IMG/VR virus record: IMGVR_UViG_3300036985_000289
Coordinates: 1-25,376 of that record
Source: a virus
Reading direction: 5' to 3' (one strand)
DNA: 25,376 nucleotides
Positions 1 through 22,465 of the stretch are shown in pieces (the stretch's first letter is position 1; each line of letters opens with the position of its first letter). Both the position numbers and the translations under genes were made by a program. Under the pieces are notes generated by a model. It made no database searches. It saw nothing but the letters and a program-made list of their open reading frames with translations, and had not been told where the DNA came from.

Positions 1-1262
1 CGAGCATAGTTATTATCTATGCGACCTGCAATGTGATGTATAAATTCTTTATTATCAAAACGATTTAAGAATTCAGTCATCTTGCCGATTGTCAACTGCG
101 ACAAGGGTTTCCGACTAACATGCACATGCATACCAACATTGTTTGCTATCTTAAGATCTTTTGGTATGTTATCGTAAAACTTTTTAAAGATGTCAAGATG
201 AATGTCTAATGTTGCAGGACATGTAACAATCTCAAAGCCATTACGAATTGAACCATCTGTTTTCATAAGAGCATGACCATGCATTAGTTTACCTACACCT
301 AGTTGTGCACGATTACGATTTTCTGTTTCGTATTCTAATTCACAACCTAAGTAAACTGTATTAGGTCTAACACGCGTAGCTTTGAATCTAAGCATGTTTT
401 CTACACGAGTAGAATAGTTATGAAGTTTGAATGAAGCATCAAGACAGTGATGACATACTTTATCAATCATAAGTTCGGTAACAGATTCGTTACCACAGTT
501 TGTACATGTTTCAATGTTTACTTCATCACGATTATATACATTACCATCATGAAAGAATTGTATAGAAGTAAGCCATATATCATATCGTTCATTGAATGTA
601 TAACCATACTCTCTTGGATCAGTAAACTTATGAATGTGTACCCAATCTTGAGTACCTAGTCTTACACGCTTTTGAGTGCCATCTACATGATACTCATTAG
701 TTAATGCATCTTTGTAGTAAGACCATGCAGGTATATCTTTAACTGCAAAAACATTTTCTACAGATACAGAATTATCTAATGATTCTAATAAGTGTGCTAT
801 TTCTACTGCTTCTTTAAGCATAACTTGAGTAGTAAGATTAGGTCGTAATGCATTAGAACGAAGTCGTCTTTTTAATGCACCCCAAAAACCTTTCTTTAGA
901 GTTCCATTTTTATTATAGAATTCTATTGGATTAACAAGATAATATAAAGCATCAATAATTGTAGTAGCGTTAGCTCTATAACTTTGATGACTTATTAAGT
1001 TTGTTTCTCTACATGCATCACGATGCACATTGTAGATAGTTAAACGTCTACTTTTGTTTGCTTCATCGTTGGTATAAAATTGTAACACACGCTGTTCTTT
1101 ATACCAAATGGTAGATAAAGTAAAGGTACTACGAACGGTTCTTTGTTCGCTGTAATCCCAAGTAGTATCTTCTTTAGTCCAATAAGTTTGTCGTATATCC
1201 GGATGTTCCCATCTAAACATATTAAAAGCTTTATTAAACTCATTAAAACTATACGGTCTCAT
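1..1262 (-). CDS. Amidoligase-domain protein with zinc ribbon (C-terminus beyond window)
   Basis: An open frame of 420 codons runs from ATG at 1262 to the left edge without a stop, so the C-terminus is missing. The start is fixed by AGGAG at 1269-1273, six bases upstream. The first 250 residues are unrecognised. C253xxC256 and C270xxC273 form a zinc-ribbon-like knuckle. They are followed by GCELEYE (306-312), KTDGS with D336, GFEIV (342-346) and GMHVHVS with H379 and H381. This order, GxExE, then K-x-DGS-x3-GxE, then HxH, is what I know from amidoligase_2-type COOH-NH2 ligases, which form amide bonds on peptides or proteins using ATP. Substrate and role here are unknown. It is the last visible gene of the leftward cassette and overlaps the upstream gene by 14 nt. 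The family call is fairly firm from motif order; the zinc-ribbon fusion is read directly; function is inference. Confidence 0.72.
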   Translation of the reverse strand, partial: MRPYSFNEFNKAFNMFRWEHPDIRQTYWTKEDTTWDYSEQRTVRSTFTLSTIWYKEQRVLQFYTNDEANKSRRLTIYNVHRDACRETNLISHQSYRANATTIIDALYYLVNPIEFYNKNGTLKKGFWGALKRRLRSNALRPNLTTQVMLKEAVEIAHLLESLDNSVSVENVFAVKDIPAWSYYKDALTNEYHVDGTQKRVRLGTQDWVHIHKFTDPREYGYTFNERYDIWLTSIQFFHDGNVYNRDEVNIETCTNCGNESVTELMIDKVCHHCLDASFKLHNYSTRVENMLRFKATRVRPNTVYLGCELEYETENRNRAQLGVGKLMHGHALMKTDGSIRNGFEIVTCPATLDIHLDIFKKFYDNIPKDLKIANNVGMHVHVSRKPLSQLTIGKMTEFLNRFDNKEFIHHIAGRIDNNYA

Positions 1263-1434
1263 CGACATCTCCTTTCATGGTTTCTATGAGATCTCTTGGT
1301 GGTTTTTTGTATGCACGGACAACAATGAATTCTTTCTTGTCCTTGCCCCATTTTACACGGGCACAATTATCCCAACCATTTCCCCAGAATACATCAAAAA
1401 GATTACGAGTGATATATTTATATTGTAATAACAT
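1249..1434 (-). CDS. Small conserved-looking hypothetical protein (61 aa)
   Basis: I do not recognise this gene. The protein starts MLLQYKYITR and is rich in aromatic and basic residues, with GNGWDNCARVKWGKDKKEF in the middle. An ATG four codons upstream (1446) is in frame, but GGAG sits six bases before the ATG at 1434, so the shorter form is preferred. Its stop lies 14 nt inside the amidoligase gene, and its last codons carry that gene's ribosome binding site, which suggests translational coupling. No membrane segment or known motif is visible. The opposite-strand frame at 1277-1570 is taken as its shadow. Confidence 0.6.
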   Translation of the reverse strand: MLLQYKYITRNLFDVFWGNGWDNCARVKWGKDKKEFIVVRAYKKPPRDLIETMKGDVDETV

Positions 1435-1483
1435 ACATGACTCCATTGACTACGGGCAAAATTACCCACATACCACACTCGTA

Positions 1484-4433: not shown

Positions 4434-4607
4434 ATGGCTTCAAAGGTTAATGCTGCTAATAACTATACTAAACCAAGCTTACGCAAGAAGATAGTATCTC
4501 AAGTTAAAGCAGCAGCAACACACGGTACTAAAGCAGGACAATGGAGTGCTCGTAAAGCACAACTAGTAGCTAAGAAGTACAAAGCTGCTGGTGGTGGTTA
4601 TAAATGA
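4434..4607 (+). CDS. Small basic protein (57 aa)
   Basis: The frame starts MASKVNAANNYTKPSLRKKI, contains GTKAGQWSARKAQLVAKKYK and ends AAGGGYK. I recall similar short basic proteins in aquatic phages and some large DNA viruses with the same NYTKP...GQWSARKAQ...GGGY pattern, but no function is known to me. It overlaps the next gene by ATGA. High Lys/Arg content and lack of membrane segments suggest nucleic-acid binding or virion packaging; this is inference. Confidence 0.75.
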   Translation: MASKVNAANNYTKPSLRKKIVSQVKAAATHGTKAGQWSARKAQLVAKKYKAAGGGYK

Positions 4608-4855
4608 GTCATTTAGCTAAGCCACAACGTTCACTTAAAGCTTGGGGTGAACAGAAGTGGAAGACTAAGTCAGGTAAGAAGTCCAGTGTAACTGGAGAAA
4701 GATACCTACCTGAGAAAGCAATTAAAGCTTTAACTCCACAAGAGTATGCAGCTACAACAAAAGCCAAGCGAGAAGGTAAGGCTAAGGGTAAACAGTTTGT
4801 AGCACAACCTAAAAGTATTAAAGCCAAAACTAAAACGTATAGGAAAGTATCTTAA
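4604..4855 (+). CDS. Basic protein, DUF5872-like (83 aa)
   Basis: The pattern SLKAWGEQKWKTKSGKKS, then ERYLPEKAIKALTPQEYAA, then KREGKAKGKQFVAQP matches what I remember of the DUF5872 type found in phages and giant viruses. The order W-x5-W-x2-SGK, RYLPxxA and KGKQFVxQP is characteristic. No catalytic motif is known. It begins with a 4-nt ATGA overlap after the 57-aa gene and is the third member of the basic island. The opposite-strand frame over it is a shadow. Family name is from memory and should be searched. Confidence 0.78.
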   Translation: MSHLAKPQRSLKAWGEQKWKTKSGKKSSVTGERYLPEKAIKALTPQEYAATTKAKREGKAKGKQFVAQPKSIKAKTKTYRKVS

Positions 4856-4856
4856 T

Positions 4857-5039
4857 ATGGCAACTAAATCTAAAAATTGGATTGCTTCTGCAATCAAAAA
4901 GCCTGGAGCTCTTAAAAAGTCTCTAGGAGTTAAGAAAGGCGAGAAGATTCCTGCTGGTAAACTAGCAACTGCTGCTAAGAAACCAGGTAAAATGGGTCAA
5001 CGTGCTCGTCTTGCACAGACTTTAAAAGGTTTTAAATAA
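4857..5039 (+). CDS. Basic protein with KPGAL...GQRARLAQTL pattern (60 aa)
   Basis: The product contains NWIASAIKKPGALKKSLGVK, then KIPAGKLATAAKKPGKMGQR and ARLAQTLKGF. The same motif set recurs in small proteins of marine phages as I remember them; no function is known. Starts one base after the previous stop. About a quarter of residues are Lys or Arg, so nucleic-acid or capsid-interior binding is plausible. Confidence 0.75.
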   Translation: MATKSKNWIASAIKKPGALKKSLGVKKGEKIPAGKLATAAKKPGKMGQRARLAQTLKGFK

Positions 5040-5040
5040 A

Positions 5041-5304
5041 ATGGCTACCAAAAAGAAGGGCGTAAGCCTCTCTGTTGGTCGTGGTGAGAAGCTTCCTGTA
5101 TCAAAAGGTGCTGGACTTACGGCTAAAGGCCGTGCTAAGTACAATGCTGCTACAGGATCTAACCTAAAAGCCCCACAACCAGGTGGTGGTCCACGTAAAA
5201 GATCATTTTGTGCACGTATGTCTGGTATGCCAGGCCCAATGAAAGACAGTAAAGGGAGACCTACACGTAAAGCTGCAGCACTTGCTCGTTGGAAATGCAA
5301 GTAA
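5041..5304 (+). CDS. Basic protein, DUF6321-like (87 aa)
   Basis: The frame contains SLSVGRGEKLPVSKGAGLTA, KGRAKYNAATGSNLKAP, RKRSFCARMSGMPGPM and a C-terminal ALARWKCK. This order matches the DUF6321 type as I remember it. Two of the Cys (SFC and WKC) could pair or bind metal. It sits directly between the 60-aa basic protein and the 255-aa gene with no spacing beyond the stop codon. Function unknown; family from memory. Confidence 0.75.
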   Translation: MATKKKGVSLSVGRGEKLPVSKGAGLTAKGRAKYNAATGSNLKAPQPGGGPRKRSFCARMSGMPGPMKDSKGRPTRKAAALARWKCK

Positions 5305-6072: not shown

Positions 6073-6332
6073 TGCCAAGTTCACCAAATTATAAAAGAGA
6101 CTACAAGGATGAATATAAAAAACATCATGCTAGTTCTAAAGATAAGACCGATAGGGCTACACGAAATAAAGCATCAAGGGCTAAGGGTCAACCAGGTAAA
6201 GATGTAGACCATAAGGTCCCTTTACGCAAAGGTGGAAGTAAGTCTTTAAGTAATACTAGAATTAAAAGTGTATCATCTAACAGATCAGCTAATGGTCATA
6301 AACCAGGCGAGAAACAGATTAAACGTAAATGA
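6072..6332 (+). CDS. HNH endonuclease
   Basis: An 86-aa protein with the HNH core VDHKVPLRKGGSKSLSNTR (residues 46-64) and a following NRSANG; the DH pair, the central N and the final N are the metal-binding and catalytic positions of HNH nucleases. The N-terminal half is very basic. HNH proteins encoded next to the terminase stimulate cos or terminase cleavage in HK97-like and other phages, so a packaging role is likely. It starts in a TAATG overlap and ends with an ATGA overlap into TerL, which supports coupling. Confidence 0.85.
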   Translation: MPSSPNYKRDYKDEYKKHHASSKDKTDRATRNKASRAKGQPGKDVDHKVPLRKGGSKSLSNTRIKSVSSNRSANGHKPGEKQIKRK

Positions 6333-7840
6333 AATTAACCCCAGAGCTTATCCATGGATTTGCTGGGGCTTGTTTAGCAAAGAGATATGACGGTTCAACC
6401 CCTACTCCGCAATGCCATCTGGAGTGGTGGGATCTCTGTTGCAGCGACAATCCTCTTGTAGCAATCGCAGCCCCGCGGGCACACGGTAAATCAACTGCGA
6501 TCACTCATGCCTACTTGCTCGCTGCTCTTTTATTTAGAGATAGAAAGTTTGCTTTAATTGTTTCAGATACTGAGAGTCAAGCAACTAACTTCCTCAGTGA
6601 TCTTAAAGATGAGATGGTTAACAATGAAGACTTGATTAACCTATTTGGTATTAAAGGGCTTGTTAAAGATTCACAGACTGACATCATTGTAGAGTTTACA
6701 GATGGTGAACAGTTTAGAGTTTTAGTACGTGGTGCTGAACAAAGAGTTCGAGGTTTGAAATGGGATCAACGTCGACCTGATTTAATTATATGTGATGATC
6801 TTGAAGGCGATGAACAAGTACAATCAAAAGACAGACGTGAGAAATTCAGAAGGTGGTTTTATGCTGCACTTCTTCCTTGTCGGTCTCAGCATGGTATTGT
6901 ACGTGTTGTGGGAACTGTGTTACATCTCGATTCCCTACTCAATCGTGTTATGCCTCCCGATTATGATGGCGATCATATTAAAGTTGAGCCACTAAAAACT
7001 TATTCAACACGTAAACGTGTAGAGTGGAGATCTGTAAGATATAGAGCTCACTCAGAAGATTACCAGCACATACTATGGGCTGACAGATATAATGCAGAAT
7101 TCTTTCAAACTAAGAAAGAAGATTATACTAAACAGGGTATCCCTGAAGTATATGCACAAGAGTTTTTAAACTATCCAATAGATGAGTCAACAGCTTACTT
7201 TAAACGTACTGAGTTTATTGAGATACCAAAGTTTACACTAGATGCAATCAAACACAAAGAAAAGAAACTTACTTACTACGCTGCAGTTGATTTTGCTATA
7301 TCAACTAGAGAACGTAGCGATTATACTGTCATTGCTATTGGCGGTATTGATTCCGATGGTATTATGAACATAATAGACATTCGAAGAGGAAGATGGGATT
7401 CCTTAGAGATTGTTGAAGAAATGTTTGCAGTACAAAAGAAGTTTCAACCTCAATACTTTGTAACAGAAAGAGGAGCTATTGAAAAAGCTCTAGGTCCTAT
7501 TCTAAGAAGAGAGCAGTTAGCTAGACAAGAATACATGAGTCTGTTTCCAATGACTCCTACAAAAGATAAACAAACTAGAGCACGTTCATTCCAAGCAAGG
7601 TTTAAAGCAGGTGGTGTTAAGTTTGATAAGAGTGCTGCTTGGTATCCAGATTTAGAAGAAGAGATGGTTCGCTTTCCTAAAGCTAGAAATGATGACCAGG
7701 TAGATGCTTTAAGTTGGTTAGGTCTTATTGTTGACCAAGTACAAGATGCTAATTCTCCTGAAGAAGAGGAAGAGTATGAATATCAAATGGCTAAGCGTGC
7801 TTCAACAAATGATGGACGTTCACAAATAACAGGATATTAA
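6329..7840 (+). CDS. terL: Terminase large subunit
   Basis: 503 aa, a normal size. ATPase: Walker A APRAHGKST (48-56), Walker B LIICDDLE (152-159), and the coupling motif GTVLH (195-199). Nuclease (RNase H fold): D321 in YYAAVDFAISTRERSDYT, E380 in VTERGAIEK, and NDDQVDA (454-460). It pumps DNA into the prohead and cuts concatemers, docking on the portal encoded directly downstream. It starts inside the stop of the HNH gene (4-nt overlap), and the portal ATG follows its stop codon with no gap. Confidence 0.95.
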   Translation: MKLTPELIHGFAGACLAKRYDGSTPTPQCHLEWWDLCCSDNPLVAIAAPRAHGKSTAITHAYLLAALLFRDRKFALIVSDTESQATNFLSDLKDEMVNNEDLINLFGIKGLVKDSQTDIIVEFTDGEQFRVLVRGAEQRVRGLKWDQRRPDLIICDDLEGDEQVQSKDRREKFRRWFYAALLPCRSQHGIVRVVGTVLHLDSLLNRVMPPDYDGDHIKVEPLKTYSTRKRVEWRSVRYRAHSEDYQHILWADRYNAEFFQTKKEDYTKQGIPEVYAQEFLNYPIDESTAYFKRTEFIEIPKFTLDAIKHKEKKLTYYAAVDFAISTRERSDYTVIAIGGIDSDGIMNIIDIRRGRWDSLEIVEEMFAVQKKFQPQYFVTERGAIEKALGPILRREQLARQEYMSLFPMTPTKDKQTRARSFQARFKAGGVKFDKSAAWYPDLEEEMVRFPKARNDDQVDALSWLGLIVDQVQDANSPEEEEEYEYQMAKRASTNDGRSQITGY

Positions 7841-9919: not shown

Positions 9920-10067
9920 CGATAGGGAATACATGAAAGAGCAACTTATCAGAGGTTTGAGTTCTGATGAGAATGAAATAAGAGGCAGATGTAATGCAAT
10001 ATTAAATATCCTTAGTGTAACTTATGAGGATTTAGTAGAAGGAGCAAGAGAAGATGCAAAATACTAG
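9843..10067 (+). CDS. Small hypothetical protein overlapping the portal gene (74 aa)
   Basis: The frame begins 77 nt inside the portal C-terminus; GGAG lies nine bases upstream. Sequence MTITQQEFLEWVDNPVTKAL and following KKALHNDREYMKEQLIRGL are helix-rich, and comparable small proteins follow the portal in related phages as I remember them. A shorter start at 9933 (MKEQLIRG) has AGGG before it, but the N-terminal EFLEWxxNPVTKA stretch looks conserved, so the long form is preferred. It ends by overlapping the GroES-like gene by 14 nt. Function unknown. Confidence 0.68.
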   Translation: MTITQQEFLEWVDNPVTKALKKALHNDREYMKEQLIRGLSSDENEIRGRCNAILNILSVTYEDLVEGAREDAKY

Positions 10068-10362
10068 TGGAATTCACCCTAAGGGTCACAGAGTTTTAAT
10101 ACTCCCAGATCCAGTGGAAGAAGTAACACAAAGCGGTATTATTTTGTCAGTCGGTGAAAATAGAGATAGGGAAAGACTAGCACAACTAAAAGGTACTATT
10201 GTCGAATTAGGCAATACTGCATGGTCAGATCAACCAAGCCCCTGGGCTGAAGTTGGAAACCATGTAATCTTTGGTAAGTACTCAGGCCTTATCTATACAG
10301 GCGATGATGACAAAGAATACCGAATCATAAACGATTTAGATGTTGTAGCAATAGTCGATTAA
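10054..10362 (+). CDS. GroES-like co-chaperonin
   Basis: A 102-aa Cpn10-type protein: GHRVLILPDPVEEVTQSGII (mobile-loop side), GTIVELGNTAWSD, and VIFGKYSGLIYTGDDDKEYR with terminal DLDVVAIVD. It matches the beta-barrel pattern of bacterial GroES and of phage co-chaperonins such as T4 Gp31, which cap host GroEL so that it can fold the capsid protein. Its place between the portal and the scaffold genes fits capsid-folding. The mobile loop (about residues 23-40) should contact host GroEL. ATG at 10054 lies in the tail of the previous gene (AGGAG 15 nt upstream, GAAGAT closer). Confidence 0.85.
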   Translation: MQNTSGIHPKGHRVLILPDPVEEVTQSGIILSVGENRDRERLAQLKGTIVELGNTAWSDQPSPWAEVGNHVIFGKYSGLIYTGDDDKEYRIINDLDVVAIVD

Positions 10363-15524: not shown

Positions 15525-16505
15525 GTGGCTCTTAATCAATCTGCAGTTAATGTAGAGGTAGTCAATGGAAGTGCTGGTGGAACTGTATTCACTAAGGCAT
15601 TATCTGTTGTTACCTCTGCTACAGCTTCTTTTTTAAGAGGTATTGGTGCTTTAAAAACTATTACAAGTACAAGTTCTGTACTTATAACACAGGCCCTTAC
15701 CTATGCTAAATCTTTACTAGCTTCAAGTACATCTGTTGTAACTATAGTAAGAGCTTTTGATAAGATTATTACTTTAATAAATGTTTTATCAACAGCTACT
15801 ATAAATCTTGTTACAATATTTTCTAGAATACTTTCTGCTACTTCATCTAGTACAGTTACTTTAATTAAAGAAATAGGTCTATTAATAACTTCTTCTATAG
15901 TATCTTCAATAGTTACTATAGCACAACAATTAAGTTATTTAAAAACTTTATCTGTTACAAGTACCGTTATTCCTATTTTACAACGTTACTTTAGTAAAAT
16001 TATTTTAGAAGTACAAGTAGTTGCAGCTACTATTTTATTAGCTACTAATAGGCTTATTACATTACTAGCTTATTCAAGTACATCAGTTACTATTACAAAA
16101 GCTATAGATAAAACTATAGATTTAGTAGTTTCTACAGTTACTGCTACTTTAACTAAAACACTAGCTTTAATTAAAACTTTAAGTATCTCTGTAAGCTCAT
16201 TAGTAACTTTAGTAGTAGCTAGATTTTACTTTAGAACTTTAACTGTAGTTTCATCAGTAACAGCAACAGTTAATAAATTCTTTAATAATGTATTGACAAT
16301 TTCGGTAAATTGTGGTATTATATTAAGTAGAGCTGTAAATAAGACTCTATCTGTACTATCCACAGTAATACCTCAATTAGTTGTAGCAGCTATCTTTTTA
16401 TTAATATTTCCAGTAGATAGAATAATCTATGCTGCGGAAAGAATAAGAAATGCTACTATAATTAAATTTAGAACCATATTCGCTGATAAGGATACTAGAG
16501 CATGA
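15525..16505 (+). CDS. Hydrophobic tandem-repeat protein (326 aa)
   Basis: Starts at GTG with weak GGGG upstream. Residues about 20-295 are built of some thirteen degenerate units of 19-22 residues of the form [ST]-x-V-T-hydrophobic, then a K/R position, then a hydrophobic strand (for example TSVTITKAIDKTIDLVVST and VTATLTKTLALIKTLSISVS). Charge is very low apart from the recurring K/R. The last 35 residues (VDRIIYAAERIRNATIIKFR) are more charged. I recall Ser/Thr/Val repeat proteins in uncultivated phages but know no function. Options are a solenoid fibre shaft, a membrane-inserting ejection protein, or a host-surface protein. It overlaps the next gene by ATGA. Confidence 0.7.
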   Translation: MALNQSAVNVEVVNGSAGGTVFTKALSVVTSATASFLRGIGALKTITSTSSVLITQALTYAKSLLASSTSVVTIVRAFDKIITLINVLSTATINLVTIFSRILSATSSSTVTLIKEIGLLITSSIVSSIVTIAQQLSYLKTLSVTSTVIPILQRYFSKIILEVQVVAATILLATNRLITLLAYSSTSVTITKAIDKTIDLVVSTVTATLTKTLALIKTLSISVSSLVTLVVARFYFRTLTVVSSVTATVNKFFNNVLTISVNCGIILSRAVNKTLSVLSTVIPQLVVAAIFLLIFPVDRIIYAAERIRNATIIKFRTIFADKDTRA

Positions 16506-22126: not shown

Positions 22127-22465
22127 ATGAACCTTATAACAGTTGAGTCGTGTAAAGCAGTTTATAGAATGTTACGTGAACTCCCACCTTTCAACAAATA
22201 TGAGTTACCTACACCTTCCGAGATAGAATTTTTAGTTGTAGATGATCCTGCAATGTATGGTCAATACCAACCTGAACCACACTGTATAACAATCAGTTCA
22301 GCTAAACAGAGTTATTTACAAACCCTAGAGAAAACAATGGCACATGAAATGGTGCATCTTATTTTATACCTTCAGGGTAAAAGATATGAGCTTCATAACA
22401 AAAACTTCTATAAACTAACATATCAAATAGCCGATATCTACGGCTGGGAACCCAAGGACTTATAA
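22127..22465 (+). CDS. SprT-like zinc metallopeptidase (112 aa)
   Basis: HEMVH (73-77) is a perfect HExxH zinc site with the preceding helix AMAHE..., and H90 in the ELHNKNFYKLTYQ segment is a candidate third ligand. The size and the end (AHEMVHLILYLQGKRYELHN) fit the SprT-like family of small metallopeptidases. Role unknown; it stands between the endolysin and a second holin-like gene, so a virion-maturation or lysis role is possible. The end overlaps the next gene by 1 nt (TAATG). Confidence 0.72.
   Translation: MNLITVESCKAVYRMLRELPPFNKYELPTPSEIEFLVVDDPAMYGQYQPEPHCITISSAKQSYLQTLEKTMAHEMVHLILYLQGKRYELHNKNFYKLTYQIADIYGWEPKDL

Follow-up and report, generated by a model that had tools for sequence, protein, structure and literature searches.

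A marine phage amidoligase with a predicted zinc ribbon and its probable place in a reduced relative of the peptidoglycan modification cassette

Gene cassettes that combine an amidoligase, a glutamine amidotransferase (GATase) and, often, an ATP-grasp ligase occur in hundreds of phages, with the ATP-grasp gene alone found in 310 records, and were reportedly described in 2009. In RIO-1-like phages, phiEco32, LUZ24 and others, the wider arrangement is named the "peptidoglycan modification cassette" (PMC5498523), and it is also covered in two further papers (PMC3890496; PMC11945000). The cassettes of LUZ24, phiEco32, tf, RIO-1 and PSA-HP1 place an amidoligase, a class II GATase and a RimK-like ATP-grasp ligase before the primase/helicase genes (PMC5498523; PMC3890496), and the LUZ24 cassette additionally has a PF14395 COOH-NH2 ligase and a gamma-glutamyl cyclotransferase. 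These papers offer a change to the cell wall that blocks superinfection as a hypothesis, resting on Iyer et al. 2009 (PMC5498523; PMC3890496; PMC11945000). The pairing of a PF12224 amidoligase with a GATase has already been reported in the OM43 phages MEP401 and MEP402 and in more than 30 metagenomic genomes (PMC10580990). The amidoligases of these two Zobellviridae phages (MEP401 gp05 and MEP402 gp06) consist of an N-terminal domain, a ribbon and a catalytic domain, as does the gene studied here, and each adjoins a GATase gene (MEP401 gp06 and MEP402 gp07) with overlapping ends, with the cassette likewise before the primase.

The window analysed here, a viral record of 25,376 bases in IMG/VR, derives from a marine phage and is probably a fragment, because its leftmost gene is cut. 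This gene is the amidoligase, of which only the 5′ part is present at positions 3-1268 on the minus strand, amounting to 422 of about 520 codons. The earlier note had described an open minus-strand frame of at least 420 codons without a stop, and this is what we find: the frame runs off the contig end and encodes 422 amino acids from the ATG at 1268, or 420 amino acids from the ATG at 1262. Residues are numbered here from the Met at 1262, which agrees with full-length relatives. The protein starts with an N-terminal domain (residues 1-250; 513-1262, minus strand) of long beta strands, helices and then a beta-rich part, followed by a predicted zinc ribbon, C253xxC256-x13-C270xxC273, at 444-506 (C253 504-506, C256 495-497, C270 453-455, C273 444-446). 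The remainder, 3-368 on the same strand, is a C-terminally cut glutamine synthetase (GS)-like COOH-NH2 ligase (Amidoligase_2) catalytic domain, assigned from a PF12224 match on a relative, fold matches and motif alignment. It contains the GxExE motif (333-347, with E308/E310 at 333-341), K-x-DGS (249-263, with K334 at 261-263 and D336-G337-S338 at 249-257), G..E (231-239, with E344 at 231-233) and GxHxH from G377 to H381 (120-134), all on the minus strand. The four cysteines have the residue numbers given in the earlier note, and the GxExE, K-x-DGS and HxH motifs follow them as it describes.

Relatives of the window protein are numerous. A scan of viral contigs recovered 25 loci at 69-90% identity and a profile scan recovered 68 loci, many at 34-45% identity, while chromosomal counterparts are distant catalytic domains only, in five actinomycetes. 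Frames of the main family close at about 510-550 residues, and the IMG/VR relatives supply the missing ∼100 residues of the C-terminus, which the earlier note had proposed to seek beyond the window. Across 31 sequences, with identity down to 24%, the four ribbon cysteines are invariant, which bears out the claim that a zinc ribbon is fused ahead of the catalytic motifs; metal binding by the ribbon is a prediction. A comparably tight CxxC-x8-20-CxxC arrangement arose by chance in 3 of 6000 shuffles of the relatives. In the same 31 sequences GxExE, DGS, G..E and GxHxH show little or no variation, and the closing ExR, which lies beyond the window end and is read from relatives only, is nearly invariant. 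The catalytic motifs, final ExR included, also align with those of amidoligases from LUZ24, phiEco32 and other phages. Pairwise dN/dS values between the window gene and six relatives are 0.15-0.25, or 0.23-0.37 when the N-terminal domain is taken by itself, so all parts of the protein are under selection.

The family assignment rests largely on a full-length relative, L026, which is 84% identical to the window protein and matches PF12224 at E 7.5e-6 (26.4 bits against a cut-off of 22). The window protein had no match in Pfam or NCBIfam, nor did a PF12224 search of the window record yield one, most likely because the C-terminal half with the ExR is missing. An AlphaFold model of L026, built with the 31 sequences, has a mean pLDDT of 86.5 and a pTM of 0.58, the latter leaving the domain arrangement uncertain. 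Against the PDB, Foldseek matched this model to glutamine synthetase (E 8.1e-4), YbdK (E 1.3e-2, probability 1.00) and PafA (E 2.7e-2), with further matches to Dop, gamma-glutamylmethylamide synthetase and a predicted glutathione synthase. The earlier note had named the amidoligase family and had held that a different fold would speak against it; both the Pfam match and the GS-like fold agree with the family. That the motif residues gather in a single ATP-binding pocket, as the note had asked, would follow indirectly from the fold match. The phage amidoligase has the core fold in common with YbdK and PafA/Dop at 8-14% identity. The substrates of YbdK and PafA/Dop differ, and with glutamine synthetase, YbdK and PafA all matching to a similar degree, the substrate cannot be read from the fold. 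Among viral models, 44 proteins match at E ≤ 0.001, many of them named amidoligase. The best match to L026, A0A6J7WX64 from an uncultured Caudovirales phage (70% identity over the full length, TM-score 0.79), showed no noted difference, and such proteins are already annotated "Amidoligase enzyme". The window protein is thus a sound, well-conserved member of Amidoligase_2 whose own new features are modest.

The N-terminal domain is specific to this lineage. Classical cassette amidoligases of the LUZ24 and phiEco32 type lack it; their catalytic motifs are the same as those of the window lineage. Modelled alone, window residues 1-248 gave a confident AlphaFold prediction (pLDDT 91.2, pTM 0.83). 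Its best Foldseek hit in the PDB had an E value of 0.34 and a probability of 0.15, and sequence searches of the domain against PDB, Pfam and PHROGs returned no match, in keeping with the earlier description of an unrecognised 250-residue N-terminus. The domain is unrecognised by sequence and by fold within one Foldseek search, and we therefore do not call it a new fold.

The window stops before the GATase gene, so the cassette of this gene is reconstructed from relatives. A complete GATase adjoins the amidoligase in 64 of 71 loci, several of the rest stopping at a contig edge, and its start mostly overlaps the amidoligase stop or falls within a few bases of it. Its signatures (Met-Cys, HFRIKTHG, HNG and SDT) mark a class II glutamine amidotransferase, and it matches GATase_4, GATase_6 and phrog_25883, with a Pfam score of 18.8 of 23 bits, below the curated cut-off. 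In the window's clade a RimK-like ATP-grasp gene follows (phrog_2599, E 9e-75; Pfam 17.9 of 21 bits, again below the curated cut-off), giving the order amidoligase, GATase, ATP-grasp, small CxxC protein and primase, with the cassette directly before the primase, helicase and polymerase genes. The small conserved CxxC protein (MRCxACNKxLNDFESTRK...LCNxC; 13288-13506 in L026) lies between cassette and primase in most relatives, and is there even where the ATP-grasp is missing. From this gene order, the amidoligase would be the first gene of the known phage cassette of amidoligase, GATase and, often, ATP-grasp. The MEP401 and MEP402 amidoligases are 33-36% identical to that of the window, and their cassettes lack the ATP-grasp of its closest relatives: protein, PHROG and Pfam searches found none in MEP401, MEP402 and their clade, although the Pfam model also misses the LUZ24 copy. 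Neither the PF14395 ligase nor the gamma-glutamyl cyclotransferase, both present in LUZ24, was found in any of 10 OM43-type records, not all of which are known to be complete. The lineage is therefore best described as a reduced relative of the peptidoglycan modification cassette, not as the full one.

Another difference concerns the ribbon, which is on the GATase in LUZ24-type cassettes and on the amidoligase in the window lineage. We compared classical loci (L098-L100 and L104-L109) with OM43-type loci (L001-L096). Among 59 distinct OM43-type amidoligases with a complete neighbouring GATase, 57 carry the ribbon, and the two without it are 5′-truncated fragments; the GATase also has a ribbon in only one of these pairs. 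The classical set shows the reverse: each of its nine GATases has a ribbon towards its C-terminal end, and no ribbon occurs on any amidoligase examined, the identity of the APT65 amidoligase being uncertain. This contrast was not found in the literature searched, and probably represents only one or two evolutionary events. A literal transfer of the ribbon between GATase and amidoligase was considered and is unsupported, as an hhalign comparison of the N-terminal domain and ribbon with the C-terminal portion of the classical GATases detected no homology. The distribution suggests that one ribbon is needed per amidoligase-GATase pair, which would fit a docking role. A more specific proposal, which we consider unlikely, is that the two enzymes form an amidation complex in which the ribbon serves for docking, the GATase bearing it in classical cassettes and the amidoligase here, and that in this lineage a novel fold at the N-terminus directs the system to another substrate.

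We consider it fairly probable that the amidoligase and GATase act as a pair in glutamine-dependent amidation, with the ATP-grasp extending the product where present. The GATase would hydrolyse glutamine through its N-terminal cysteine to release ammonia, and the amidoligase would use ATP to phosphorylate the carboxylate of the substrate, converting the acyl phosphate to an amide. In most of the lineage, the RimK-like ATP-grasp would then attach a peptide or a single amino acid. Docking, either of the substrate or of the partner enzyme, would be the most likely role of the N-terminal domain and ribbon. Cell-wall peptides, modified so as to block superinfection, are our tentative first choice of substrate, a choice that we hold at less than even confidence, with a host protein next.

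The earlier note had raised a modified host protein or a peptide product as candidate outcomes. If a host or phage protein is the target, the amidoligase would join an amine or amino acid to its side chains or its C-terminus, the ATP-grasp would extend the tag like RimK and the GATase would serve as an accessory amidase, an arrangement comparable to PafA with Pup. The fold match to PafA/Dop points this way, as do the RimK-like ATP-grasp, whose PHROG is named "ribosomal protein S6 glutaminyl transferase", and the large N-terminal domain and zinc ribbon, which suit recognition of a macromolecule. However, the matches to glutamine synthetase and YbdK are about as good as that to PafA, and the cassette has no conserved small gene for a substrate. 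A 65-aa early ORF overlapping the amidoligase start (1249-1446, minus strand; found in 27 loci) was rejected as a substrate: other members, L026 and L006 among them, do not have it at this position, and it is therefore not an obligatory partner. Protein modification seems rather unlikely. Lower still, as improbable, we rate a contribution to phage replication through the synthesis of a small, peptide-like metabolite or of a modified cofactor or nucleotide. Metabolite clusters do contain some amidoligases and the cassette directly precedes replication genes, but classical cell-wall cassettes hold the same place and no nucleotide-modifying or transport gene was seen in the cassette. Least credible, to the point of being very improbable, is a degenerate, non-catalytic amidoligase retained as a binding protein. 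Such a protein would fit the great divergence of the family and the weak Pfam score of the MEP402 amidoligase (19.6 of 22 bits, below the cut-off), but not the low dN/dS and the near-invariant catalytic motifs. Glutamine-dependent amidation, most plausibly of cell-wall peptides, is the reading we retain.

Elsewhere in the window, several plus-strand genes were noted. The terminase (6329-7840) is 75% identical to that of MW202796.1, in which no relative of the window amidoligase was detected, so the late genes may have a different history from the early ones. A Cpn10/GroES homologue (10054-10362; PF00166, E 1e-10) lies just after the portal gene, at the same place as a chaperonin 10 gene in MW202796.1, and its product may act as a phage co-chaperonin in the folding of the capsid, like T4 gp31. 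Positions 4604-5304 encode three small, strongly basic proteins in a row, all rich in lysine, the third being a DUF6321 member (E 2.5e-22). A 326-aa protein with degenerate TSTVTLI-like repeats (15525-16505) has no Pfam match, and related DNA copies lie 231-306 bases apart. A SprT-like protein (22127-22465; E 2.1e-7) adjoins the lysozyme gene.

The amidoligase gene is largely of an already described kind, the new details being the reduced cassette and a ribbon on the amidoligase instead of the GATase. The N-terminal domain and the consistent placement of the ribbon provide concrete handles on the substrate and on partner docking. The reduced two-gene form is present in the cultured phages MEP401 and MEP402, which makes the modified target easier to test. 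If the ribbon does dock the two enzymes into one amidation complex, these phages would carry the system in its minimal functional form.
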